In this document: positions 3,702-20,986 of the stretch, piece by piece
Position numbering within the stretch: position 1 is the first letter of the stretch
Layout of the letters: each line of letters opens with the position of its first letter
Source: a virus
Direction: 5' to 3' (one strand)
IMG/VR virus record: IMGVR_UViG_3300021976_000071
Location: 1-24,825 of that record
DNA: 24,825 nucleotides
Program-made: the position numbers and the translations under genes
Notes under the pieces: model-generated
The model's input: the letters and a program-made list of their open reading frames with translations, nothing else
Told to the model about the DNA's origin: nothing
Database searches by the model: none

Positions 3702-4169
3702 TTACGCCTCGTGTTCTATGACGGTGGCTTCTGGGATGTCGGCCTTGAGCTCCCGAGTCACGTTGCCAATATTCAGCGTGATGTTGAAGCCCGAGCCGCC
3801 GCCTCCCGAGAGTATGTTCGCAGTGTCAACTTCCCCGATCCTCGCGAGGAACTTACCCGCCTCGACGCGCTGGTTAAGGGGGATCTCGGTATCCCCAAGG
3901 TCGCGTATGAAAGTCTCAAGCTGGCTCTCGAGACCGGTCGCCGCCTTTACCTTGATGCGGTCACGGGTCGAAAGCGCTGAGTTCCAGTCGCGCACCATTT
4001 CGCCCAGCATATGCTGGAACTTCGGGTTGCGTTCGATCTGCAACCATTCCTCTTCGGTGAGCTTGTGCGCTGCGATGATATCCTTGACTTCGAAGATATC
4101 CATGGCAATCTCTCGGGCGAGAGCCGCGAACTCGACAGTAAAAATTTCGGTAGGATCGGTGGAGGTCAT
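3702..4169 (-). CDS. terS: Putative terminase small subunit
   Basis: The 155-residue protein lies directly upstream of TerL on the same strand with a 3-base gap. Its sequence fits podovirus-type small subunits: an N-terminal helical part with VKDIIAAHKLTEEEWLQIE (residues about 28-46), likely DNA-recognising. A middle region follows with WNSALSTRDRIKVKAATGLE and PLNQRVEAGKFLARIG, and then a Gly-rich tail and beta-like end (SGGGGSGFNITLNIGNV). TerS recognises the packaging site and regulates TerL. The start at ATG 4169 has AGAAAGG about 11 bases upstream on the minus strand. It is divergent from the portal gene with only about 20-50 bases between, so promoters for both directions must overlap here or lie within genes. 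Confidence 0.8.
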   Translation of the reverse strand: MTSTDPTEIFTVEFAALAREIAMDIFEVKDIIAAHKLTEEEWLQIERNPKFQHMLGEMVRDWNSALSTRDRIKVKAATGLESQLETFIRDLGDTEIPLNQRVEAGKFLARIGEVDTANILSGGGGSGFNITLNIGNVTRELKADIPEATVIEHEA

Positions 4170-4208
4170 TGCGTTACCAGCCTTTCTAGGTGTATTTCTG
4201 CCTAAACA

Positions 4209-4214
4209 TAGGGA
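4209..4214 (+). promoter_or_regulatory. Candidate ribosome binding site that decides the portal start
   Basis: TAGGGA lies 8 bases before the in-frame TTG at 4223. The longer in-frame alternative, GTG at 4190, has no Shine-Dalgarno sequence in front of it. This favours TTG 4223 but does not prove it. Confidence 0.4.
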
Positions 4215-4222
4215 ATTTGGCC

Positions 4223-6337
4223 TTGGCAGTACTTCAGATCGTATCCCCAGACCAGCTTAACCAGCAAGAGGCGAATGATAACGCTGCCCGAGTGGCTCAG
4301 GAAGACACTGCCAACCAGAACCAGCAGCTTGCCAATTCTCTGATTTCCTTCATCGACAACCAGTTCAACATGATGGTCCGCCACCGCGATGGTTCTGCCG
4401 GCTGGTCCGATCGGCTGGTCGCCGCGATGCGGGTTTTCAATGGCCAGTACGACAGCCAGAAGCTCCAGGAGATCCGCAAGTTTGGCGGGTCCGAGATCTA
4501 CGCCCGGCTCATCGCCACCAAGTGCCGCGGTGCCACGTCGCTGCTGCGTGATGTTTATCTTAACACCGAGAAGCCATGGGGTCTGACCCCGACTCCCGAC
4601 CCGACACTGCCGGACAACGTCATGCAGGACGTCATGAGCATGGTCGACGCCGAGATTGGCAACGCCCAGCGCGGTGGTCAGCCGCCAGATCCGACGGCCA
4701 TCCGCGACCGGGTCAACGGCCTGGTCGACGCTGCCAAGCGTGCAGCCCTCAAGCGCGCCCGGATCGAGTCGAAGAAGTCGTTCGCTAAACTGGACGATAT
4801 CCTGACCGAGGGTGGGTTCTACGAAGCCCTAGCTGCATTCCTCGTGGACCTTCCGCTGTTTCCCTTCGCCTGCATCAAGGGTCCCGTCGTGCGGGTTGTA
4901 CCCCAGGTCACATGGGAGAACGGCGTCGCCAGGTCGGTGAACAAGCCGAAGATGTTCTGGCAGCGGATCTCGCCGTTCGACGTGTGGTGGACCCCGGGTG
5001 TCTCGAACATCGCTGATGCTGCCGTCATCGAGCGCACGCGCGTTACCCGCGCTGATCTCAACCAGCTGATCGGTCTCCCCGGGTACAACGACGATGCCAT
5101 TCGCGAAGTGCTGAAATGGTACGGCCGGTCGGGCTACGTCGAGGCCAATGCCTCGCAGAACGAAAATGCCCGCGCCACCATGGAGAGCCGCGAAGATCCC
5201 CGGATGAACGAGTCCGGGCTGATCGACATGCTCGAATACCATGGCTACGTGCAGGGGGATCTGCTGATCCAGCAGGGCTTCACTCCCGAGCAGATACCAG
5301 ATCCGCTCATGGACTATTTCATCGACTGCTACAAGATCGGTCGATACGTCATCAAGGTTCAACTCTCTCCGTCGCTCAGGAAGCGGCCCCCGTACTACGT
5401 CACGTCTTTCGAGAAGGTGCCTGGCACCGTCGTCGGCAACGCCCTGCCGGACATCTTGCAGGACATTCAGGACGCCTCCAACGCAGCCCTCAGATCGCTG
5501 ATCAACAACATGTCGATCGCGTCAGGCCCGCAGGTAGTCGTGAATGACGATCGTATCGCGGACAACGAGGATGGAGACGAATTATACCCATGGAAAAGGT
5601 GGCATACGGTAACCGACCCGCTCGGGAACAACTCCCAGCAGCCAGTAAGTTTCTTCCAGCCAGCATCCAACGCGCAAGAACTGCTTGGCGTCTACGAGAA
5701 ATTTACGCAGATGGCCGACGAACTGTCCGCTATTCCGCGCTACATCACCGGTTCCGATCGTATGGGCGGCGCCGGGCGCACCGCTTCTGGGCTGGCTATG
5801 CTGATGGGCAACGCCGCAAAGATCTTGCAGACGGTAGCCGCCAACGTCGATAACGACGTGATCGAGCAGGCGGTGTCCGAACTATACGACATGGTAATGC
5901 TCACCGATCGGACAGGAATGCTCCGTGGGGACGAGAGCATCGTGGTGCTGGGTGTCAACGTTGCGATGCAGCGCGAGACCCAGCGCCAGCGTCAGATGGA
6001 GTTCCTCCAGATTACGGGGAACCCGATCGATGCTCAGATCGTCGGCATCCGGGGCAGGGCGAACGTCCTGCGCGAGGTTGCAGATGGGATTGGCCTCACA
6101 GGGGAGAACGTGGTACCACCCGACGACGAGATCGCAGCGATGCAGAACGCCCCGGGTGGTCCACAAGGTCCAGGAGGCGGTCAGCCACCAGGCGCACCGG
6201 GGGGCGGTCAGGCGCCAGCGGGCCAGGGCTCGATAGCCCCGCCATCTGCGCCAGCAGCAGCACAGACGAACGTTGTCGGGCCCACGGCGGGGGCCGGACA
6301 AGGGACGGGAATTAACCCCGCTGCGGGGCCAGCCTGA
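4223..6337 (+). CDS. Portal protein (podovirus type)
   Basis: The portal forms the dodecameric ring at one head vertex through which DNA passes. The predicted protein is 704 residues from TTG 4223, or 715 from GTG 4190; TTG is preferred because TAGGGA precedes it. It has the size and late features of the large portals of short-tailed phages: an N-terminal WSDRLVAAMRVFNGQYD region, a central part with FWQRISPFDVWWTPG, then TASGLAMLMGNAAKILQTVA, and a closing segment PIDAQIVGIRGRANVLREVA. The last roughly 60 residues are Gly, Pro, Gln and Ala rich and probably disordered. It begins the long rightward structural operon and ends overlapping the next ATG (TGATG). Family assignment rests on these motifs, size and gene order. 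Confidence 0.88.
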   Translation: MAVLQIVSPDQLNQQEANDNAARVAQEDTANQNQQLANSLISFIDNQFNMMVRHRDGSAGWSDRLVAAMRVFNGQYDSQKLQEIRKFGGSEIYARLIATKCRGATSLLRDVYLNTEKPWGLTPTPDPTLPDNVMQDVMSMVDAEIGNAQRGGQPPDPTAIRDRVNGLVDAAKRAALKRARIESKKSFAKLDDILTEGGFYEALAAFLVDLPLFPFACIKGPVVRVVPQVTWENGVARSVNKPKMFWQRISPFDVWWTPGVSNIADAAVIERTRVTRADLNQLIGLPGYNDDAIREVLKWYGRSGYVEANASQNENARATMESREDPRMNESGLIDMLEYHGYVQGDLLIQQGFTPEQIPDPLMDYFIDCYKIGRYVIKVQLSPSLRKRPPYYVTSFEKVPGTVVGNALPDILQDIQDASNAALRSLINNMSIASGPQVVVNDDRIADNEDGDELYPWKRWHTVTDPLGNNSQQPVSFFQPASNAQELLGVYEKFTQMADELSAIPRYITGSDRMGGAGRTASGLAMLMGNAAKILQTVAANVDNDVIEQAVSELYDMVMLTDRTGMLRGDESIVVLGVNVAMQRETQRQRQMEFLQITGNPIDAQIVGIRGRANVLREVADGIGLTGENVVPPDDEIAAMQNAPGGPQGPGGGQPPGAPGGGQAPAGQGSIAPPSAPAAAQTNVVGPTAGAGQGTGINPAAGPA

Positions 6338-6558
6338 TGGACCTGAAAGGCAAGCGTCAGAGCACTCATGTGGATTACTATACTCGTCCGCAGAAGGATG
6401 ACCGCGATGGGTACGCCAAGGCTGAACCGACTGATAATACGTCCACGCCAGGGGTTATGAGCATAAAAGCTGGAGCTACTCGTATGGATGAAGCACTTAC
6501 CACAGACCGTAAAAAATCTAAATGGTTGCGCAGGTCGCGGTTGCGTGGTGAGAATTAA
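6337..6558 (+). CDS. Hypothetical small basic protein downstream of portal
   Basis: The 73-residue frame begins at an ATG that overlaps the portal stop, so it is probably made by translational coupling; no good ribosome binding site is visible. It is hydrophilic and charged, with Lys/Arg clusters at both ends (DLKGKRQ at the start and DRKKSKWLRRSRLRGEN at the end) and no hydrophobic core obvious from sequence. I recognise no family. It is the first of five small genes between portal and scaffold, a place where head-completion, decoration or internal head proteins are often found. That role is inference only. Confidence 0.6.
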   Translation: MDLKGKRQSTHVDYYTRPQKDDRDGYAKAEPTDNTSTPGVMSIKAGATRMDEALTTDRKKSKWLRRSRLRGEN

Positions 6559-6584
6559 CTAAGCAAGCAACCAAGGAGATCACC

Positions 6585-6833
6585 ATGGCCGCGAAGAAGG
6601 CAACGTCCAAGTCAGCAAGCGCACAGAAGATCGGTGCAGGCCCATCGGGCAAAATGAAGAAGTTCGGAGCCGTTGGCACCCAGAAGCCTGGTGTGTCGTC
6701 GGTGTCAGCTGGGTCTACCGGGGGTAAGTTCCCGGCCGGTGGACCATCGGGCAAGATGCAGAAGTTCACCCCGGTGAAGCCGCAGAAAGCCGGTGGGTCG
6801 GCCGTTACCAACTCGGGCTACGCGAAGAAGTAA
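6585..6833 (+). CDS. Small lysine/glycine-rich protein with an internal repeat
   Basis: The 82-residue protein has a strong ribosome binding site (AAGGAG, 7 bases before ATG 6585). It is Lys, Gly, Ser and Ala rich with almost no acidic residues, so its charge is strongly positive. Two 18-residue repeats, GPSGKMKKFGAVGTQKPG (19-36) and GPSGKMQKFTPVKPQKAG (53-70), are spaced exactly 34 residues apart. It ends in SGYAKK, and the next gene product also has GYAK near its end. Such a protein is likely disordered and could bind DNA or the acidic inside of the capsid. No family is recognised and the role is inferred. Confidence 0.7.
   Translation: MAAKKATSKSASAQKIGAGPSGKMKKFGAVGTQKPGVSSVSAGSTGGKFPAGGPSGKMQKFTPVKPQKAGGSAVTNSGYAKK
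6639..6794 (+). repeat. Two direct copies of an 18-codon unit inside a small basic gene
   Basis: Copies lie at 6639-6692 and 6741-6794. Both encode GPSGKM-x-KF followed by a QK-x-G end, with the DNA core ccatcgggcaa-atg-agaagttc nearly identical. The copies are in frame and 102 bases apart, which suggests an internal duplication under protein-level selection. Confidence 0.65.
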
Positions 6834-11515: not shown

Positions 11516-11811
11516 GCCGCATCGTCAAGACCTTCCAGAAATACACGGTGGACCGGCGCAAGCTTCAGCTGGATTACACCTGCTGGCTCGAGGACACCGA
11601 GACACTGACCGATACGCAGGTGGTGATCGTGCCGTACACCGTGGATGCGCCATTGGCGATCACGACCGGGTACACTGACGTGACCAACAAGAAGATCGCC
11701 ATGTTCGCCGCTGGCGGTGTCGCCAACACGAATTACACCGTGTCGATGATCGTGCGCACCAGCGACGGCCAGACGAAGCGCGACGATATCGGGATAAGGG
11801 TGGTGGCATGA
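11512..11811 (+). CDS. Small beta-sandwich-like (fibre-associated) protein
   Basis: The 99-residue protein starts in an ATGA overlap and is preceded by a run of six Gs. The sequence follows the alternating pattern of an Ig-like beta sandwich: KLQLDYTCWLEDTETLTDTQ, VVIVPYTVDAPLAITTGYTD, KKIAMFAAGGVANTNYTVSM and IVRTSDGQTKRDDIGIRVV. The order D-Y-x-x-W-L-x-D then a GG-x-x-N-T-x-Y-x-V strand and a T-x-x-G-Q turn is known from phage structural proteins with a fibre or baseplate-like role. It ends ATGA-overlapping the first large fibre gene. It may be a small fibre-base or adhesion-domain protein. Confidence 0.65.
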   Translation: MSRIVKTFQKYTVDRRKLQLDYTCWLEDTETLTDTQVVIVPYTVDAPLAITTGYTDVTNKKIAMFAAGGVANTNYTVSMIVRTSDGQTKRDDIGIRVVA

Positions 11812-12833
11812 GCGTTATCTACACCAACAACGCATCGAGCAGGCTCGCAGTAGATACCCCCGGGGCGTCCGGTACGATCTCTGTCCTGCCAGGCGAGGGT
11901 GCGAAGTTCCCCAACCCGGGGCCTGGTGACTACTTCGTGGTTACCCTCGAGGACCGGCGCACGCGGCAGATCGAGATCTGCAACTGCACTGCACGCTCCA
12001 ATGACATTATGGTGCTCACGCGCGCCCAGGAGGGCACCGTGGCGCAGGCATTCTACGCCGGGGCGACAGTATCCAACCGCCTGACGGCGGCTCAGATCAT
12101 TGATATCCTGGGTTCCAGCTACACGAAAGCTGAGTCTGACACCCGGTATATCAACGCAGCTGGCGACGATATGCTCGGCCCGCTGATGCTCGCTGATGAC
12201 CCTGTCGAGCAACTTGAGGCGACGACGCGCCGCTATGTCGACAATGCCCTGTCGCAGCGCTCGCCGGCCGCACTGGCGACCGCCGCTACGCTCACCTACA
12301 AGGCGACGGCGGGGCAGCTGACGTTCAACCTCATCACACCCGATCTTTGGGGCGACACATACACGCTGAGTCAGGCCAACCCTGAGAACGTGGATGTCTA
12401 CATCAACGGGGTCCGCAAGCTCCAGACCAAGACGCCTGTCACGGGCGACTTCACAGTGAGTGCTGCCCTCAACCGGATTACGATGGCGGCACCCAGCACC
12501 TTGAACGCGGTGATACAGATCGACGTGCATACGCCGCGCAGCTTCCTCTCGCCCGGTCAGGTGGACGTGTTCCTGCTTCGAGACATTGACATCGCGGCTG
12601 ACGGCGTGACGACGGGCCAGGTCGACGGCACAAGGACAACATTCTACCTCGCCAAGGCATCCGACGGGTCACCATGCGCCGTCATCGCCGACGAGGAAAT
12701 TGCGTTCTATATCGATGGTATCCAGCAGATCCCGAACGTGGACTTCACGGCATCTGGCACGACGTTGACGTTCTCGACGCCGCCAGCTGTTGATGCAGGA
12801 CGCTGGGGTCTCTGGTTCCGTGCAAGCGCATAG
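11808..12833 (+). CDS. Tail fibre protein
   Basis: The 341-residue protein has a virion-anchoring type N-terminus: YTNNASSRLAV, a FPNPGPGDYFVVTLED strand pair, then RAQEGTVAQAFYAGATVSNR, a pattern known in phage tail fibres. Residues about 112-148 carry the fibre repeat motif GDDMLGPLMLADDPVEQLEA followed by RRYVDNAL, usually part of the trimeric shaft. The second half has two related beta modules with YINGVRKLQ and YIDGIQQIPNVDFTASG, and ends AGRWGLWFRASA. It lies first in the fibre cluster and overlaps the preceding small gene by ATGA. It binds the host surface by inference. No enzyme motif is seen. Confidence 0.85.
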   Translation: MSVIYTNNASSRLAVDTPGASGTISVLPGEGAKFPNPGPGDYFVVTLEDRRTRQIEICNCTARSNDIMVLTRAQEGTVAQAFYAGATVSNRLTAAQIIDILGSSYTKAESDTRYINAAGDDMLGPLMLADDPVEQLEATTRRYVDNALSQRSPAALATAATLTYKATAGQLTFNLITPDLWGDTYTLSQANPENVDVYINGVRKLQTKTPVTGDFTVSAALNRITMAAPSTLNAVIQIDVHTPRSFLSPGQVDVFLLRDIDIAADGVTTGQVDGTRTTFYLAKASDGSPCAVIADEEIAFYIDGIQQIPNVDFTASGTTLTFSTPPAVDAGRWGLWFRASA

Positions 12834-12841
12834 GGGTTGAT

Positions 12842-14488
12842 ATGACGGTAACGAGATCACAGGTAGTTCGCTCAGACGTCAAAGGCACCCGGCCGGCCGG
12901 GCGTAAGAAGGGCGAGCTCTTCGTCAATTTCCCTGACAAGCAGTTTGGTGTTGTCGGTAATGCTGCCGCTACGATCGACCTCCTGTCGATCCCGTTCCAC
13001 TCCGACACGGCTGACTACCCCACGGGTGCACTGGTGGTCAAAGACGGCGTGATCTACCAGGCTCTGGCCCCGGTAACGGCCATACCGTTTGCCGCTGCGC
13101 AGTGGAAGACTGTCGGTGCCGACGCGGTGGTCACTGCCACCCTGGCTCCGGCTGTCGCCCTGCTGAACCTTGGCACGATGTGGTTCAACCCGAACACCAG
13201 CAACCTCTATGTGCTCTACCTAGACGTCGCGACGAAGGTCTGGCGCCAGATCGCCAACGGGCTGGTCGCACCAAGCACCCTGCCACCAGCTTCGCCGCAG
13301 GTTGGCCAGTTGTGGTGGGAGACTGACAGCGGCAAGCTGTACATGTGGTGGGACGACGGCACCAGCCAGCAGTGGGTGGAGGCATCCGGTGGTAGTGGCA
13401 TGAGCGAGGCGCCAGTCGATGGCGAGCCCTACGCGCGCAAGGACGCAGCCTGGGTGGCGGCGGTTCGCAAGACTGCCAGCAATGACAACATGGTCTTCAA
13501 CCCCGGGATGCGCGCGTCACAGGAGCGTGGCTCGGTACTAGACTACACAGTTACACCATACTTCTTTGCTGATCAGTGGTCGCGGGAGTTGCTCCTTACA
13601 GCTGGGACAATATCGATCCAGCGTGTTGACACCCTGAGCCCGCTTTCTGACGCTGGGTACAGTACCTGTGCCCAGGCTAAGGTCGTGGCAATCAATGCCG
13701 CCCCTGCGGTGAATAATTTCTTCCTGTTCGAGCACTATGTCGAGGGGCACAGGTTCGCGCGTCTCAAGTGGGGGCAGGCTGACGCCGTACCTGGCCTCTT
13801 GGCTTTCCGGGCTAGCTACCCTGCTGGCACCTGGTCTGTCTGTGTCTCCAACGAGGCGTTGAACCGTAACTTCACTGCGACGTTCACCATCAGTGCTGGG
13901 CAGGCCAATACGTGGGTTCTGGTCAAGATCCCGATACCGGCGCAGACGACTGGCTTCTGGGAGTTCTATACCGGCAAGGGCTGCAACATCACGTTCACCC
14001 TAGTTGCTGGTACCGACTTCGTAGCTGCGGCTCCAGGCTGGAACACGGTATCTGACAAGTTCTGTGCTCCGGGGTGCACCAACTTCGCATTGGTGGTGAA
14101 CGACACAGCCCGTGTGACAGATGTATGCCTCTACCCAGACCCGGAGAATACCCAGACCCTACCCTGGTTCATCAAGCCAACTCTTCAAGAGGAATTGGCT
14201 GAGGCTGAGCGCTTCTGGCAGCGGACAATGACCCATTTCCAAGGTGCGACAGTTAATGCCCAGAACTTCATGGCTTTCGCGTATTTGCGCACTCCGATGT
14301 CCGCAACCGTGCCGACAATTAGTGGAGTGAATTATAACGCTCTGGGCTTCGCTGCTGTTGCGGGGGCCCTTACGTACTACGGTTCCGCCCAAGGATATCC
14401 TTGGACTATTCGGGAGAGTCGCGCAGCCAATTCGACGTCTGGGTACAACTCTTTCCAAACTATCGTTACTGCGAATGCGAGGTTCTGA
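12842..14488 (+). CDS. Tail fibre or tail spike protein with modular N-terminus
   Basis: The 548-residue protein starts MTVTRSQVVRSDVKGTRP. Residues 23-38 read KGELFVNFPDKQFGVV, which resembles the start of the collar-type protein at 15331. A module near 154-180 (GQLWWETDSGKLYMWWDDG) is of the kind found in many fibres. At 190-205 it has APVDGEPYARKDAAW, almost repeated in the next gene. Residues from about 216 on (NMVFNPGMRASQERG, then a long beta-rich region with PYFFADQWSRE) resemble the receptor-binding C-terminal parts of phage fibres. It overlaps the next start (TGATG). It probably binds host surface carbohydrate. I see no catalytic residues, though a hidden one in the C-terminal part cannot be excluded. 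Confidence 0.8.
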   Translation: MTVTRSQVVRSDVKGTRPAGRKKGELFVNFPDKQFGVVGNAAATIDLLSIPFHSDTADYPTGALVVKDGVIYQALAPVTAIPFAAAQWKTVGADAVVTATLAPAVALLNLGTMWFNPNTSNLYVLYLDVATKVWRQIANGLVAPSTLPPASPQVGQLWWETDSGKLYMWWDDGTSQQWVEASGGSGMSEAPVDGEPYARKDAAWVAAVRKTASNDNMVFNPGMRASQERGSVLDYTVTPYFFADQWSRELLLTAGTISIQRVDTLSPLSDAGYSTCAQAKVVAINAAPAVNNFFLFEHYVEGHRFARLKWGQADAVPGLLAFRASYPAGTWSVCVSNEALNRNFTATFTISAGQANTWVLVKIPIPAQTTGFWEFYTGKGCNITFTLVAGTDFVAAAPGWNTVSDKFCAPGCTNFALVVNDTARVTDVCLYPDPENTQTLPWFIKPTLQEELAEAERFWQRTMTHFQGATVNAQNFMAFAYLRTPMSATVPTISGVNYNALGFAAVAGALTYYGSAQGYPWTIRESRAANSTSGYNSFQTIVTANARF

Positions 14489-15141
14489 TGGCCGCTTTTA
14501 ACTTCCCAGGATCACCCTCGCTCAACCAGGAGTACACTGCCAACGGCAGGACGTACATCTTCAATGGGTACGCGTGGGATATCAAGCCAGTCGCTGGCGG
14601 TGGAGGCGGAGGCGGAGGTATCGCCGATGCTCCGGTGGACGGCAACACCTACGCTCGCAAGGACGCGGACTGGTTGCAGATCGTTATTCCGACGATCGTC
14701 AATCCTGCCAACTTCTCCTGCGTTGTCGCCAACACCAACGTGCAGTCAATCCCAGCCAATGCTGTGACCCTGGTCACAAACATGGACACGGTTGATCATG
14801 ATCCTGCTGGGGCTTGGGACATCACCAGTTCCAGCTTCATATGCAAGCGAGCAGGTCTTTACTCGATTGACTGCAAGGCTGTGATATCGACCTTGGATGC
14901 GGGCGCGCGCCTCGTGGTGTTCGTCTACAAGAACGGACTCAACTACGCCATGATGGGGCGCGGTGTCGCTGGTGCCGGTGGGCAGATGGCAGGGTTCGGC
15001 GGTGGCTTGCTGATACCGATGGTTATCAATGATGCGCTGGATATGCGTGTGTTCCATGCCAACGCCGCAGCTACTGACCTCGTCGGTGTCGGTGGTTCGG
15101 AGACTCGCTATACGACCTTTGCTGCAACGTTTATAGGATAG
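14488..15141 (+). CDS. Tail fibre protein with a C1q-like C-terminal domain
   Basis: The start is ATG 14488, overlapping the stop of the gene before (TGATG) with GAGG upstream; a longer frame from 14401 lies inside the preceding gene. The 217-residue protein begins AAFNFPGSPSLNQEYTANG and RTYIFNGYAWD, a compact N-terminal domain common in phage short fibres. A linker of eight glycines (37-44) is encoded by GGN codons, followed by the shared APVDGNTYARKDADW motif. Residues about 73-217 form a likely C1q/TNF-like jelly roll (FSCVVANTNVQSIPANAVTL, FICKRAGLYSIDCKAVIS, VFVYKNGL), which often makes a trimeric knob. It may recognise the receptor. Chain folding is inferred from the pattern. Confidence 0.8.
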   Translation: MAAFNFPGSPSLNQEYTANGRTYIFNGYAWDIKPVAGGGGGGGGIADAPVDGNTYARKDADWLQIVIPTIVNPANFSCVVANTNVQSIPANAVTLVTNMDTVDHDPAGAWDITSSSFICKRAGLYSIDCKAVISTLDAGARLVVFVYKNGLNYAMMGRGVAGAGGQMAGFGGGLLIPMVINDALDMRVFHANAAATDLVGVGGSETRYTTFAATFIG

Positions 15142-15330: not shown

Positions 15331-16218
15331 ATGTCACAGCCCGCACCAGGCTCGACACAACCCGGGGAACTCTACGTCGATCTTGCGTCTAAGGAGATGT
15401 GGATTGGCGTCGATCCGTCTGAAGATCCCAACGGTTCTGTCATCATATCCGATTACATCGGTCTCCAGCTGGCCATCGAGCAGGCGCTTCTGGACGCCAA
15501 TGAACACACCGATCTGTCGCTGTCAGGCAAAGCCAACACAATTCACACGCACACTGCGTCCCAGATAACTGACTTCGAGGACGCTGTTCAGGCAGTCACG
15601 GGCGGTGGTAGCGGGGCTGGCTTCGCAGCCAAGATGATCATGATGTATGGTGGTTCGCTCGCCGACATCGGCGTCGGCTCCCTTGCCGGCTGGGTGTTAT
15701 GCGACGGCTCGAACCAGACGCCTGACCTCAGAGACAAGTTCGTTCTGGGCGCTGGCAACAAGGCCATCGGCGCGACGAACTCCCTCTCGTCAGCAGTTTC
15801 TAGCGCTGCCGGTTCACACTCTCATACGATCAGCGCCACGGCGATCACCGAAGCCCAGATGCCGTTCCACGCGCACGCAGTGTCGGCGTCCGGTTCCGGT
15901 AGCGGCGGCACCGACGCACAGGGCAACCACGCCCACTTATATCTTCGTCCGGTACTGGGGAGTGACTCGGACAGAGGTACAGGCGGGTCGCAGTGGAGTA
16001 TCGATAATCAGCAAAATGGTGGTACCGAAGCTGCTGGTATCCACGCGCACAATGTCTCGGTCAATGTCAGTGTTACCGGCGCCACCGACGGGCGTGGCGG
16101 TAACCAGGGGCACACTCACGCCGAGTCCGTCGCCCCGGACCACACCCACTCGTTCACGTCCGCTACCATCCGCGAGGTCACGCCGTACTACGCGCTGGCC
16201 TTCATCATGAAATTATAG
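15331..16218 (+). CDS. Tail collar-type fibre protein with seven His-x-His motifs
   Basis: The 295-residue protein has an N-terminal GELYVDLASKEMWIG stretch (12-26) like that of the 12842 gene. After an acidic coiled-coil-like part and a Gly-rich linker (90-97), residues about 119-140 show the phage tail-collar signature GWVLCDGSNQTPDLRDKFVLG. From 160 on, His-x-His pairs at 163, 180, 200, 238, 261 and 271 alternate with beta repeats; a seventh is at 72. In T4 gp37 such motifs bind a row of iron ions in the trimer axis, so metal binding is expected here. The end EVTPYYALAFIMKL is typical of this family. It is probably a trimeric receptor-contacting fibre. Confidence 0.85.
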   Translation: MSQPAPGSTQPGELYVDLASKEMWIGVDPSEDPNGSVIISDYIGLQLAIEQALLDANEHTDLSLSGKANTIHTHTASQITDFEDAVQAVTGGGSGAGFAAKMIMMYGGSLADIGVGSLAGWVLCDGSNQTPDLRDKFVLGAGNKAIGATNSLSSAVSSAAGSHSHTISATAITEAQMPFHAHAVSASGSGSGGTDAQGNHAHLYLRPVLGSDSDRGTGGSQWSIDNQQNGGTEAAGIHAHNVSVNVSVTGATDGRGGNQGHTHAESVAPDHTHSFTSATIREVTPYYALAFIMKL

Positions 16219-16227
16219 GAGCAAGAC

Positions 16228-16554
16228 ATGTCCCGATCGCAGTATCACAAGCAGTATATTCAGAGCTACGACAGCGATGGTGATCCGGGCCTTTACGTCC
16301 GGCCGACGTTGACCTCGCTCACGCCCAGCACCGCAGCCAATGGCACAACTGGTGCTCTTACGGTGGCTGGTGCCAACTTCACCACGGGGGATAAGCTCAA
16401 TTTCCGCGGCGTGGACTATGCCATCGCTACGCTCACCAACCGGGGCAGCATGATCACTGTCACTGTGCCGAAAGGCGCGGCCGGCTCGATCCCGGTGTTC
16501 ATCAAGAAAGCAAATGGCCAGGTATCAGGAACGATCACATATGTCGTGACATAA
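16228..16554 (+). CDS. Small virion protein with an IPT/TIG (Ig-like) domain
   Basis: The 108-residue protein has TAGGAGC before its ATG. Residues 25-108 follow the IPT/TIG pattern: PTLTSLTPSTAANGTTGALT, VAGANFTTGDKLNFRGVDYA, MITVTVPKGAAGSIPVFIKK and ANGQVSGTITYVV. The first 18 residues, MSRSQYHKQYIQSYDSDG, match the starts of the genes at 16565 and 18193 far better than chance suggests. It is therefore probably an Ig-like domain with a docking peptide, attached to the same place on the tail as the SGNH spike. Ig-like domains on phage virions often bind surface carbohydrates. It has no catalytic motif. Confidence 0.8.
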   Translation: MSRSQYHKQYIQSYDSDGDPGLYVRPTLTSLTPSTAANGTTGALTVAGANFTTGDKLNFRGVDYAIATLTNRGSMITVTVPKGAAGSIPVFIKKANGQVSGTITYVVT

Positions 16555-16564
16555 GGGGAACGCG

Positions 16565-18193
16565 ATGACGCGCTCACAGCTGCATAAACTCCGGGTTCAA
16601 GGAGTAACATCCAACGGGTTCACTGGCGGTATAGTAGTTGTGCCACCAGTAAATCCCATCGTCCTGACGCAGACCCTAGACGCGACGTACCCAACGGTCG
16701 TCGGGTTTGGCGACAGCGTCATGGTGGGCAGCTTCGCGTCTATCCCGGCACTCCAGAACATCAATCTGTTTGCTACCGGCAAGAGTGCTGGCACACCGCT
16801 GAACAAGGGCATCGGTGGCACCTGGATCACCAACCTGCCAAGTGTCGCAACTGCTCCGGCTGCGACAGTGGACAATGGGCGTGACCGCTTCCAGGCCGAC
16901 TTGATGAAGGCCAACAAGCGCGACTTCCTCGTGATCAACTACGGCTTCAACGACAGCCGATATACTCAGACCGCCCACGCCACGCAGCTGGGCGCGTTCA
17001 TTGACGACTACCGCGAGGTGCTGAACGGGCTGATCATCGACGGATACAAGCCCGAGAGGATCATGCTCGGGAACATGTACTGCGTCTCGGTGGCCCGCTT
17101 GAACAACACAGTTCCGCCGCAGCCACGTGTCGACTACGAGGATTTCGTCAATGCGATCGAGGCACTGGCCAAGGAGTACGGCACCTTCTTCGCCCCGACG
17201 TACCAGTTCATGAACTCCAATGGGGGCCCCGGCGCGTTGATAGGTGGCGACGATCTGCACCCGAACGACGCAGGACACGACATAATCGCGGACTGCTACC
17301 TCGCTGCTATCCGCACCTACACTGGCACGCCGACGAACATTAAGATGGTTGGGGCAGCTGACGGCTCGCTCACCATCAGTTGGGACTCGGTGCAGGCTGC
17401 ACAGTCCTATGAGGTCGAGGCCACGCTGAAGACCGGCCTGACGTTCACCAGCCAGACCACCAGCGTCACGTCGCCCAAAGTGATCACTGGCCTAGCTGCC
17501 GGGGATTATGTCTGCCGCATCCGGCCGGTGTTCGCTGGCGGTGTGCGCGGGTCCTGGGGCTTCCAGAATATCCCGGTCGAGGTGGGTGGTGTCCTGTTCG
17601 CGCTCGATAATTTCTACGATGTCGACGGTACGCTCATCACTGCTCACGTCGGGGATGGTGGGCTCACATGGATACGCCAACCTGTGCTCGCGGCCCCAAG
17701 CAGCGACATCGACATCCAGGGTGGGCGCCTGCGGGCAACCAGTGCCAACGCATCTGTCTACCAGGCATCAACGGCGCCGCCATCAGCGAACTACTCAGTG
17801 ACGACGTGGGTCGAGATCGAGACCATCGCGCTCAACGCCCAGGCAGGACCTGCCGGCCGAATGCAGGCAGCTGCCAACACGTTGTACTATGCCCGTTATA
17901 CTGAGGGCGCGAGTCCTGTGTTCTCGCTGCACAAGGTAGTCGCTGGCACCACCACGCAGCTGGGTGCAAACGTCAATACGACAGGCCTCCTGCCCCGGGT
18001 GGGTGAGCGCGCCAAGCTGACGCTTTCCATGGTCGGTACGACGATCAAGATGCTGGTTGACGATGTCGAGGTGGTGAGCGTAACGGATGCCTCGATCGCC
18101 GTCGCTGGTAAGGCCGGTGTCCGCATGGCTGGTGTGAACACCGGGCCGAACACCAACGCACAAATTCAGTCTTTCTACGCAAAGGGGCTATAA
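16565..18193 (+). CDS. Tail spike with an SGNH/GDSL-type hydrolase domain
   Basis: The 542-residue protein starts with the tag MTRSQLHKLRVQGVTSNG. Residues about 43-250 are an SGNH/GDSL hydrolase: block I GFGDSVMVG with likely nucleophile Ser51, block II with Gly84 in NKGIGGTW, block III GFND with Asn129, and block V GGDDLHP with Asp229 and His232. Thus all four blocks are recognisable. Residues about 253-340 look like a fibronectin-III-type domain (SLTISWDSVQAAQSYEVEAT...YVCRIRPVFAGG). Residues about 345-542 look like a lectin-type jelly roll. Phage SGNH domains in fibres usually remove acetyl groups from host polysaccharide, so O-deacetylation or related ester hydrolysis is expected. It ends with TAATG overlapping the next gene. 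Confidence 0.85.
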   Translation: MTRSQLHKLRVQGVTSNGFTGGIVVVPPVNPIVLTQTLDATYPTVVGFGDSVMVGSFASIPALQNINLFATGKSAGTPLNKGIGGTWITNLPSVATAPAATVDNGRDRFQADLMKANKRDFLVINYGFNDSRYTQTAHATQLGAFIDDYREVLNGLIIDGYKPERIMLGNMYCVSVARLNNTVPPQPRVDYEDFVNAIEALAKEYGTFFAPTYQFMNSNGGPGALIGGDDLHPNDAGHDIIADCYLAAIRTYTGTPTNIKMVGAADGSLTISWDSVQAAQSYEVEATLKTGLTFTSQTTSVTSPKVITGLAAGDYVCRIRPVFAGGVRGSWGFQNIPVEVGGVLFALDNFYDVDGTLITAHVGDGGLTWIRQPVLAAPSSDIDIQGGRLRATSANASVYQASTAPPSANYSVTTWVEIETIALNAQAGPAGRMQAAANTLYYARYTEGASPVFSLHKVVAGTTTQLGANVNTTGLLPRVGERAKLTLSMVGTTIKMLVDDVEVVSVTDASIAVAGKAGVRMAGVNTGPNTNAQIQSFYAKGL

Positions 18194-18582
18194 TGGGTTC
18201 TCAACGTCACAACGTTTACATCCAGGGCCTCGCAGCAGATGGGGCTCAAAACGCGGAAGGGATGGCTGCTATGGGATTTACACCGGAACCGATTGACCCA
18301 AATGCAATGGTCGAGCAGGGCGCTACGGCGTCCCCGATCATTGACACGCTGGGCAACTTCGAAGCACCAAGATCCGGGTTCGAGTTGGTGGTGAATGGCC
18401 GCATGTTCGAATACTGGGACAACGTCTTCATCGACAGTGTGCCCTACCCGACCGAGTACAACTCCACTATACGTCTGACAGCCACGATTACGGCAGCTGC
18501 CAATCTATCGGTCGGCATCCACAAGGTCACCGTCGGCATGTCCAGCCGCCGTTCCAACGAGCTCAACCTGAAGGTATTTTAA
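18193..18582 (+). CDS. Small virion protein with an Ig-like domain and the shared N-terminal tag
   Basis: The 129-residue protein starts MGSQRHNVYIQGLAADG, the third copy of the tag seen at 16228 and 16565. The second half (about 45-129) is again IPT/TIG-like: SPIIDTLGNFEAPRSGFELV, VNGRMFEYWDNVFIDSVPYP, TEYNSTIRLTATITAAANLS and VGIHKVTVGMSSRRSNELNL. Linker residues 18-45 are Ala, Pro and Gly rich. Both of its junctions are TAATG overlaps. It is probably a second Ig-like decorating or adhesion subunit at the same docking site. Its domain call is a little weaker than for 16228 because the first strands are less clear. Confidence 0.75.
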   Translation: MGSQRHNVYIQGLAADGAQNAEGMAAMGFTPEPIDPNAMVEQGATASPIIDTLGNFEAPRSGFELVVNGRMFEYWDNVFIDSVPYPTEYNSTIRLTATITAAANLSVGIHKVTVGMSSRRSNELNLKVF

Positions 18583-20351
18583 TGGGCGTACTGCGCATCA
18601 AGGACTTTGGAGGTGTCATTCCGGTATCGGGCGATCGTGCCTTGCCGGACGGTTTTGCCACCGAGTCCGTGAACACGTGGCTCTACGGCAATGAGCTACG
18701 CGGCGTGCGTCCGCCAGTAGATGTAATCGCTATAACTCCGACAACCCGGAAAGTGCTGCGCATTCCCAAGCGCACTGTCGGCGGAGATCCCGCGTTTCCC
18801 ACACTGATCCCGCCACCTAGCTATCTGGGGGACAGCGTCTGGGTGCAGTTTATAGATCCCGACACGGACATCGTGAAGGGTCAATTGGTGGAGGACTCCT
18901 ATGAGCGATATTATTTTTGCAGCCCAACTACTGGCCCTATGTTCAATACATATGCTCGCTTACAGAGTGGTCTCCCACCGTATAAGCTTGGTGTACCCGG
19001 GCCGAGTACGGTTCTCGACGCCCTTCAGAATAACGCCTGGAAACCGACAATCCCATCTATCACGGGTGGAGCGGCTCCGGTCGTCACGCGATCATACACA
19101 TACACATGGGTGAATGAGTTCGGAGAGGAAAGCACCCCTGCTCTCCCTGTCACGGGTGCAGGTAATGCTAACGGGGTCTGGAATATCGGTAACATTGTCG
19201 ACCCTGTCGCAGTTGCAGGGTATGCCAATTACACTAAGAAATATCTATACCGAACCATTACGGGGACGTCCGGCCAGACGACGTTCTACCGGGTCTCCGA
19301 GGTAGCGATCGGTGTGACCACCTTTGCCGACAACGGAGCGCTCCTGACGGATGCCATTCTGGCGGGCAAGCTGACGCTCGAGAGCACCAGCTATAACCTG
19401 CCACCGGCGACCCTCAAGGGTTTCGTCGCCATGCCAAACGGCTTTCTCATCGGTTTCGACGGGAACTCGGTCTACATGTCCGAGAGCTTCCAGTTTCACG
19501 CTTGGCCGGCCGACTACAAGCAAGCGACCGAAACCCCGATCGTGGGGCTGGGCGTGCTGGGCCAGACCTGTGTGGTCTGCACTCAGGGTTATCCCGCAAC
19601 GATCACTGGGGTGAAACCCGCGACCTGTTCCTTCACCAAGTCCAACGCCGATGAGCCATGCCTGTCCAGGGGCTCGATCGTGTCGTCGCCGGACGGGGTG
19701 ATCTACGCTTCCCAGAACGGCCTTATCCTCGTCGGCCCGTCTGGCATCCAGAACGTGACGAAGGACCTGATCACCCGCGATGACTGGATCAGGCTCTACT
19801 CACCACAGTACCTGCGTGCCGTCCGCTACCAGAATGGGTATCTGGCGCTAAAGGCGGTGCCTGGCCAATCTGGTCAGGCTTTCTTTGTTGACCCCACGGC
19901 TCTCAAGGTGGCGCTGACGACGTTCAGTGACTTCGAGATCATCGTCAACCTCAACTCCGACTTCTGGTCTGGTGAGGTGCTGATGCTCGAGGCCGGACAG
20001 ATCATGCGCTGGGATACGCCGTCGGATAACATCCTGCCGGTCAAGTGGGTGTCGAAGGAGTTTCAGTACCCCTTCAAGGAGAACTTCGGGTGCTATGCGA
20101 TCTACTGGGATGATGCACGTTATTCCGAGAATAACTTCGGGCTGGCGTTCATCCCGGCCGATGAGAAGGCGCGGTTCCTCGTTTATGCCAATCGTGTGCT
20201 AATCTATGACCAGGAGGTCCCGGTGAGCGGGGAGGGCATTCGCCTCCCGTCAGGGTTCAAATCGGACATCTGGCAGTTCGAGATCCGGGCCCGGGTGCCG
20301 GTCTATTCCATGCACGTGGCCTCGACCATGAAGGAGTTGAAGAGTGTCTAA
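18582..20351 (+). CDS. Putative tail nozzle (tail tubular B-like) protein
   Basis: The 589-residue protein starts MGVLRIKDFGGVIPVSGDRA and contains SYTYTWVNEFGEESTPALP at 171-189, a signature of short-tailed phage tail proteins. Later segments (LKGFVAMPNGFLIGFDGNSV, MSESFQFHAWPADY, then many short strands) fit a beta-propeller. T7 gp12 (794 residues) and P22 gp10 play this role: they form the tip channel that penetrates the outer membrane. This protein is shorter than gp12 but has the same style and place, after connectors and before the injection proteins. The call is by motif memory and gene order. Confidence 0.7.
   Translation: MGVLRIKDFGGVIPVSGDRALPDGFATESVNTWLYGNELRGVRPPVDVIAITPTTRKVLRIPKRTVGGDPAFPTLIPPPSYLGDSVWVQFIDPDTDIVKGQLVEDSYERYYFCSPTTGPMFNTYARLQSGLPPYKLGVPGPSTVLDALQNNAWKPTIPSITGGAAPVVTRSYTYTWVNEFGEESTPALPVTGAGNANGVWNIGNIVDPVAVAGYANYTKKYLYRTITGTSGQTTFYRVSEVAIGVTTFADNGALLTDAILAGKLTLESTSYNLPPATLKGFVAMPNGFLIGFDGNSVYMSESFQFHAWPADYKQATETPIVGLGVLGQTCVVCTQGYPATITGVKPATCSFTKSNADEPCLSRGSIVSSPDGVIYASQNGLILVGPSGIQNVTKDLITRDDWIRLYSPQYLRAVRYQNGYLALKAVPGQSGQAFFVDPTALKVALTTFSDFEIIVNLNSDFWSGEVLMLEAGQIMRWDTPSDNILPVKWVSKEFQYPFKENFGCYAIYWDDARYSENNFGLAFIPADEKARFLVYANRVLIYDQEVPVSGEGIRLPSGFKSDIWQFEIRARVPVYSMHVASTMKELKSV
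20331..20336 (+). promoter_or_regulatory. Ribosome binding site for GTG start at 20344
   Basis: A perfect AAGGAG lies 7 bases before GTG 20344, inside the end of the nozzle gene. It supports the small gene that overlaps the nozzle stop. Confidence 0.55.
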
Positions 20352-20559
20352 CAAGCGAGTTCAGCAGACAATCCCCGAGCCGTTCGAAACGCTCTCTTCC
20401 CTTCGCTCCACCGCTATGGCAACAAAGGAACTGGTGGAGACAATTTCTGGACAGCGCGGCCACGCAAACGACGCAGCAGTAACCTGGGCGGATCTTGTAA
20501 ACCTGGGTTTAATCAAAGCAGATCAGGTGCCGAAAAATGTTGGATCGTATCGCCCTTAA
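20344..20559 (+). CDS. Hypothetical 71-residue protein
   Basis: The start is GTG 20344, supported by AAGGAG 7 bases before it, overlapping the nozzle stop by 8 bases. The protein (MSNKRVQQTIPEPFETLSSL...) is a mixed polar helix set: STAMATKELVETISGQRG, then DAAVTWADLVNLGLIKADQV. No family is recognised. It overlaps the following gene by 23 bases. Small helical proteins in this place may be tail or injection accessory proteins, but that is a guess. Confidence 0.65.
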   Translation: MSNKRVQQTIPEPFETLSSLRSTAMATKELVETISGQRGHANDAAVTWADLVNLGLIKADQVPKNVGSYRP

Positions 20560-20986
20560 CGAACCGGAGTGGGGCCCAAGAATTGGAGTGATCGCCGGGT
20601 GTGTCTACAACCCGGCGATCGATATAAACTTCGCAAGAGTTATCGATGACGTCCTGCTGGGGGGTGTCATCTTCAACAACTTCACCGGAGAGAGCATCGG
20701 CATCCATTCCGGTGCTCTTGAAGCATCCTGGATCAACCGTGACATGCTGTTCGTGACCTTCGACTATCCGTTCAAGCAGCTGGGCGTGAACCGGATCTTC
20801 GGGCAGGTGCCAGCCGATAATGTGCACGCCCGCGAGTTCAACAAGAAGCTGGGCTTCAAGGAGATCGCGGTGATCAGTGGCGTCTACAGGAACAACGTCG
20901 GTTGTGTGGTAATGCGCATGGAGCGGGACGAGTGCAAGTACCTCAATATCAAGCCGCGGCATCTTCAGTCGAAAAAGCTTAACTAA
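20537..20986 (+). CDS. GNAT-like (acetyltransferase-fold) protein
   Basis: The 149-residue protein overlaps the previous gene by 23 bases. Residues about 76-128 follow the GNAT/RimJ-like pattern: a helix PFKQLGVNRIFG, then a strand and helix with NVHAREFNKKLGFKE (95-109), and a final strand VGCVVMRME. The lGF segment after an Asn is the most typical part. The acetyl-CoA P-loop (R/Q-x-x-G-x-G/A) before the 76-90 helix is not seen, so catalysis is doubtful. GNAT-like genes next to tail and internal protein genes occur in several short-tailed phages, and their role is unclear. It could be a virion component or a modifier of host or phage proteins. Confidence 0.65.
   Translation: MLDRIALNEPEWGPRIGVIAGCVYNPAIDINFARVIDDVLLGGVIFNNFTGESIGIHSGALEASWINRDMLFVTFDYPFKQLGVNRIFGQVPADNVHAREFNKKLGFKEIAVISGVYRNNVGCVVMRMERDECKYLNIKPRHLQSKKLN

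Follow-up and report, generated by a model that had tools for sequence, protein, structure and literature searches.

The window that we have analyzed, that is, the whole stretch of DNA with its full length of 24.8 kb, is a record from an uncultured virus. Its structural module has both of the features of SU10-like podophage morphogenesis that we tested, a portal of the SU10 type (4190..6337; Pfam SU10_portal, PF23899, 1e-12) and a nozzle-type tail protein (18582..20351; phrog_511, 4.4e-107), a candidate docking partner whose probable function as a nozzle is taken from its family and from the gene order. Relatives of this nozzle-type protein were found in 158 phage records. The cultured kin of the window are podophages, among them the Rhizobium phage RHph_TM3_14A with 37% identity, and Bcep22-like, Pseudomonas, Erwinia and Vibrio phages with about 27%. 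A collar-like tail protein (15331..16218; tail families phrog_5795/8469/1800) marks the upstream bound of a slot that extends to the nozzle gene, and this interval is filled by three genes, all of them on the + strand like the portal, collar and nozzle genes. Gene 1 is an ORF at 16228-16554 (108 aa, N-terminus MSRSQYHKQYIQSYDSDG), gene 2 lies at 16565-18193 (542 aa, N-terminus MTRSQLHKLRVQGVTSNG) and gene 3 at 18193-18582 (129 aa, N-terminus MGSQRHNVYIQGLAADG). Sequences resembling a ribosome-binding site are located 5' of genes 1 and 2.

The three genes have in common an N-terminal peptide of about 18 residues, a putative docking tag, encoded at 16228..16287 in gene 1 (MSRSQYHKQYIQSYDSDGDP), at 16565..16624 in gene 2 (MTRSQLHKLRVQGVTSNGFT) and at 18193..18249 in gene 3 (MGSQRHNVYIQGLAADGAQ), again all on the + strand. 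The three N-termini fit the pattern described in the first-pass annotation of this DNA. A 16-column profile built solely from the tags of other phages, leaving the window out, gave them 33.5, 33.8 and 27.1 bits, respectively, and just these three came out on top among the 33,578 six-frame positions of the window, the next best being 11.7 bits. The same profile reached a maximum of 16.3 bits on 200 shuffles of the proteins of the window. The gene at 12842 (N-terminus MTVTRSQVVRSDVKG) was considered as a fourth tagged gene and rejected, its 11.7 bits being below this maximum. Comparing the 16-residue tag cores by pairs, we found 8, 8 and 6 identities. Peptide rather than DNA is conserved, as had been proposed, since the conserved tag residues use differing codons (TCG/TCA/TCT for S, CAG/CAG/CAA for Q and CAC/CAT/CAC for H). 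Besides, the tag of gene 2 and that of its ortholog in another record, L129, differ by eight synonymous codons and a single non-synonymous one.

Behind the tag, gene 1 (16228..16554) codes for one IPT/TIG (Ig-like) domain (Pfam TIG 8e-6, residues 26–105; NF058597 3.8e-9). Gene 2 (16565..18193) codes for a SGNH/GDSL hydrolase (about residues 45–249; Pfam Lipase_GDSL_2 1.5e-14) followed by a Fn3 domain (about 253–340, with a match to 3mpc at 0.013) and a beta-rich C-terminal part. All the SGNH catalytic blocks are present (GDS at 49, GIGG at 82, GFND at 127 and DDLHPN at 229), and residues 101–249 resemble the acetyl xylan esterase 3w7v (8.5e-4). In gene 3 (18193..18582) the tag is followed by a linker, similar in the alignment to the linkers of L003, L004 and L259, and by an IPT/TIG-like domain (NF058597 1.6e-8, residues 55–127). 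The bodies of genes 1 and 3 have no BLASTP similarity, yet both match the NCBIfam domain NF058597 (IPT/TIG-like), so that the bodies in the window are of two kinds and not three. Genes 1 and 3, which had been counted as different, belong to one domain family. Whole-protein searches retrieved no relatives of genes 2 and 3 from INPHARED, nor of gene 3 from IMG/VR.

The AlphaFold model of gene 1, run on an alignment of eight rows, has residues 1–26 as coil (pLDDT 53–56 over the first 20) and residues 27–108 as a beta domain (pLDDT mostly 72–86), for which the best Foldseek matches were the IPT/TIG domains of EBF1/EBF3. The tag is predicted here as an unstructured arm ahead of a folded IPT/TIG domain, something that suits a peptide that becomes ordered on a partner, without proving it. 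The model of gene 2 was uninformative (mean pLDDT 29.8).

We have found a total of 27 tagged genes, at least 24 of them outside the window, over 20 distinct related podophage contigs (near-identical contigs were counted once). The tag consensus is M-x(1,2)-R-S-Q-R-H-[KLM]-x-E-[VI]-Q-G-x-D-S-x-G, and without exception it stands at the start codon. Whether the pattern is always N-terminal had been raised with the original description, and in the collected loci scanned with the profile all matches that reached 21 bits lay at start codons, internal ones attaining at most 20.3 bits. A lower value, only 17.8 bits, was accepted for the second tagged gene of L093 (a 56 kb record), where the tag is N-terminal and a second gene with the tag lies next to it; its tag HMM match, at 3e-7, is partly by construction since this HMM includes the gene itself. 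The close nozzle relatives in IMG/VR have one or two genes with the tag at the equivalent location. There are three tagged genes in the window and two each in G003, G004, G005, G001 and G082.

Further tags were sought over all IMG/VR by DNA patterns combining ribosome site, start and tag, which gave further cases among random short frames. With AAGGA as ribosome site there was no tagged ORF among the at least 120 matches listed, and therefore few pattern matches are real. A weak match of the tag HMM in G065 corresponded to a frame of 59 residues and was discarded. The HMM matched none of 13 cultured relatives and nothing real in the PDB, a sorting nexin match there being due to chance. A tblastn search of INPHARED with the 20-residue consensus gave no matches, with a query too short to be decisive, and a composite tblastn with the tagged proteins gave mainly matches to the Ig bodies; some matches apparently extended into the tag, namely in Salva, Yut1, cm3 and Simon, but these sequences are without it. 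Searching genome contigs with the nozzle profile yielded only two loci, and the examined loci had no tag. The tag is also missing from many of the nozzle relatives that are at least 40 kb long, so that it has to be considered an optional accessory. A tree of 41 nozzle proteins calls for about four changes of its state, a count that took in only the tagged records and the untagged contigs of 40 kb or more.

As to the genomic position, in the eight contigs of the clade of the window (the window itself, G001–G006 and G010) all 14 genes found in the slot between collar and nozzle are tagged, the contigs G001 and G002 ending inside the slot. In L068 and L075 a tagged gene of 119 residues is directly 5' of the nozzle gene. 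Other lineages have the tagged gene elsewhere: directly after the portal gene in six records (L264, L266, L267, L268, L270 and G022), between portal and scaffold in L269, after the nozzle and one small gene in L262, amid the fibre genes in L260 and L093, and in L261 at the end of the contig, next to a divergent portal gene. The first-pass annotation had described the tag on fibre-region genes, and the seven records with the gene after the portal or between portal and scaffold show that it is not confined to them. Nevertheless, the readable contexts are all within the structural module, and the tag is confined to structural-module genes of one broad group of podophages.

The sequences behind the tag are diverse. 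Comparison of the 27 tagged genes by BLASTP gave 11 body groups with no detectable similarity between groups, and the matches of these bodies fall in tail, head-decoration and carbohydrate-enzyme families. Many are single Ig-like domains of 80–110 residues. Apart from the IPT/TIG body of gene 1 of the window, there are four IPT/TIG domains in L131, a He_PIG body in L262 and other Ig-like bodies in L264, L266–L268, L270 and L093. The Ig domains of L266 and L093 match Hoc-like PHROGs, and for L266 the hit is to phrog_4069, a family of Hoc-like head decorations (7.9e-5). Enzymes are also among the bodies: the window has the SGNH esterase with Fn3, and L093 has a GH5 cellulase accompanied by an Ig-like domain. 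The latter record, from an uncultured podophage, repeats the design of the window in sequences unrelated to it, a short Ig-like protein with the tag being followed by a tagged protein of 848 aa (4076-6622) that carries the cellulase, the Ig-like domain and a C-terminal part that seems lectin-like.

Our preferred reading, to which we would give a probability of roughly 70%, is that the tag is a virion-docking peptide for interchangeable surface modules, and we infer that the tagged proteins are present in the virion, attached by the tag. One of the structural proteins of the particle would have a site that accepts the first ~18 residues, which are without structure as long as the protein is free, and the body, be it an Ig-like/IPT domain, an esterase or a cellulase with Ig, Fn3 or lectin-like parts, would be displayed outside to bind or trim polysaccharides of the cell surface. 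Genes with new bodies could be swapped into the slot provided that the tag is retained. The idea of a shared attachment peptide for different modules, already put forward in the first-pass annotation, is the reading best supported by the strictly N-terminal location, the 11 body groups, the occurrence on structural-module genes only, the fully tagged slot, the synonymous codon changes and the unstructured arm of the AlphaFold model; but the tag is not confined to the fibre region, and the bodies in the window are of two kinds.

The neighbouring tail nozzle/adaptor complex is the most likely dock, by analogy with the short fibres of SU10, although we would put it at slightly under even odds. 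This tail dock is favoured by the tagged genes that adjoin the nozzle in the clade of the window, but gene order does not imply it, since in several lineages the tagged gene is not adjacent to the nozzle gene. Adjacency to the portal gene in seven records makes a dock on the capsid or the portal possible beside the nozzle, and together with the Hoc-like Ig bodies in other lineages it favours the head. The tag would then be a capsid-binding peptide and the tagged proteins head decorations, functionally similar to Hoc or pb10, at the capsomers or near the portal vertex, and the enzymes too would be carried by the head. Such a reading still belongs to the docking explanation and competes only with the tail as partner, and we regard it as possible but rather doubtful. 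T5 pb10 does bind hexamers via its N-terminal domain (PMC5292684), and relatives of the Ig bodies in the Stenotrophomonas phages Salva and Yut1, with another N-terminal part, come directly after the major capsid gene. However, in the clade of the window, in L093 and in L262 the tagged genes are in the tail, fibre or nozzle region, away from the capsid gene; the known capsid-binding parts are folded helical domains and not peptides of 18 residues, and a polysaccharide esterase or cellulase would be unusual on a head.

Three other explanations compete with docking. An assembly or chaperone-binding signal, acting in folding, oligomerisation or timing and making no contact in the finished virion, is unlikely: an arm predicted to be unstructured and too short to fold alone would agree with it, but the contexts examined have no dedicated chaperone gene beside the tagged genes, and single-Ig proteins should need no chaperone. 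Still less probable is a head-targeting sequence, comparable to the N-terminal capsid-targeting sequence of the internal proteins of T4, by which the tagged proteins would be directed into the head, to be injected. In its favour, the peptide is N-terminal and common to unrelated proteins, in some lineages encoded next to the portal and scaffold genes, and some tags contain L-x-E (e.g., HLREIQG), similar to the site cut by the prohead protease of T4. But the T4-type cleavage motif (L/I)xE is missing from all three tags of the window and L-x-E from several others, the adhesion domains and polysaccharide enzymes behind the tag are expected outside, and in the clade of the window the slot is in the fibre/nozzle region. 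At the bottom of the scale we place common descent or a constraint at the DNA level (recent duplication or a conserved start-site sequence) with no role in docking. The phages with the tag are indeed akin by their nozzle, portal and capsid genes, and some bodies are homologous; against this, the conserved codons have changed synonymously, the tag stays while bodies are replaced or diverge beyond recognition, and positions and gene neighbours vary among lineages.

Under the docking reading there are several known systems to compare with. In phages K1-5/SP6 and in Klebsiella phages, conserved peptides, some as short as 7–11 residues and others longer, dock second receptor-binding proteins (PMC6872550), and the RaK2 proteins have an N-terminal motif common with other tail spikes (PMC3622015). 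The K1-5/K1E/SP6, KP32, KP34, Menlow and phiK64-1/RaK2 groups are similar to our case in having a short N-terminal sequence on several virion enzymes of one phage with a body free to change, the virion location being presumed for the tagged proteins. Systems of the K1-5/KP32 kind differ in that most of their bodies are large depolymerase spikes, which dock on an anchor protein carrying a T4gp10-like domain (PMC6872550, PMC3622015). No match to the T4gp10-like family appeared among the neighbouring tail genes scanned with PHROGs and Pfam, such HMM absence not being proof. The tag of the window is also unlike the peptide motifs of these systems as quoted in excerpts of PMC6872550 and PMC3622015, and the tagged family differs from them in its many bodies of a single Ig-like domain of 80–110 residues and in being found also beside the portal gene.

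The short tail fibre of SU10, gp16, docks on the dock loop of the nozzle via N-terminal residues (PMC9509320). Both phages have an SU10-type portal, and the likeness would be in the mode of docking; gp16, however, is a trimeric fibre. Hoc, pb10 and Sf14 gp20 combine a conserved capsid-binding part with variable Ig-like domains (PMC10385173, PMC5292684, PMC11821841), comparable to the Ig-like bodies that we recognized by TIG, He_PIG and Hoc-like PHROG matches; but their binding part is folded, largely helical and of 60–120 residues, and here there is only an arm of 18–26 residues that is also found on enzymes. The spike gp63.1 of G7C is a deacetylase (PMC10743462) and offers a parallel in which a deacetylase/esterase is carried on the tail, bound to a second protein of the virion, although it docks on gp66 via a positively charged surface (PMC10743462, PMC6872550). 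Finally, in the Burkholderia phage DC1, a distant Bcep22-like relative, adjacent tail fibre genes begin alike, but with a module of ~90 residues, the size of a folded domain and unrelated in sequence, and the RSQRH tag is absent from DC1.

The letters of the tag sequence were not found in the literature searched. The remark of the first-pass annotation that it knew of no described tag of this kind holds for the sequence but not for the kind, as receptor-binding proteins with short N-terminal docking peptides are known. Within the literature and databases searched, there seems to be no earlier description of the peptide family, of the breadth of its cargo or of its use in two genomic locations. 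Tentatively, and at somewhat under even odds, we propose a general-purpose plug: one peptide of ~18 residues by which a broad group of uncultured podophages may exchange single-domain adhesins and unrelated polysaccharide enzymes on one structural site, possibly with many copies on each particle, and with the head or portal vertex taking the place of the tail in some lineages. As a sequence signature the tag allows small surface proteins and enzymes of uncultured podophages, otherwise annotated as hypothetical, to be recognized from their first 18 residues and, if docking is true, it illustrates in a compact form how cargo modules can be exchanged on a virion.

Other N-terminal modules were seen along the way. 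Genes of the fibre region have a second recurring one, F-[DN]-F-P-x-[ST]-P-x-x-x-Q-...-Y-x-[FYW]-...-W, which is not the RSQRH tag. It was located at 14488-14580 in the window, at 2032 in L016, at 5354 in L017 and at 2631 (reverse complement) in L130; it heads several adjacent genes per phage, for example in L002, L004 and L130. A third module (xNNA..L, ~90 residues) is found in one gene of the window (11808-12833) and in four tail fibre genes of the Burkholderia phage DC1 (L009 7540-11926). The Ig-like proteins mentioned above for Salva and Yut1, which are siphophages (L273 13944-14399 and L275 5686-6141), have an Ig domain that resembles that of the tagged L093 proteins. Besides, a gene annotated as Acyl-CoA N-acyltransferase (20537-20986; phrog_4470, 8.4e-31) is located amid the tail genes of the window, and genes with this annotation are at the equivalent location in many of its distant relatives.
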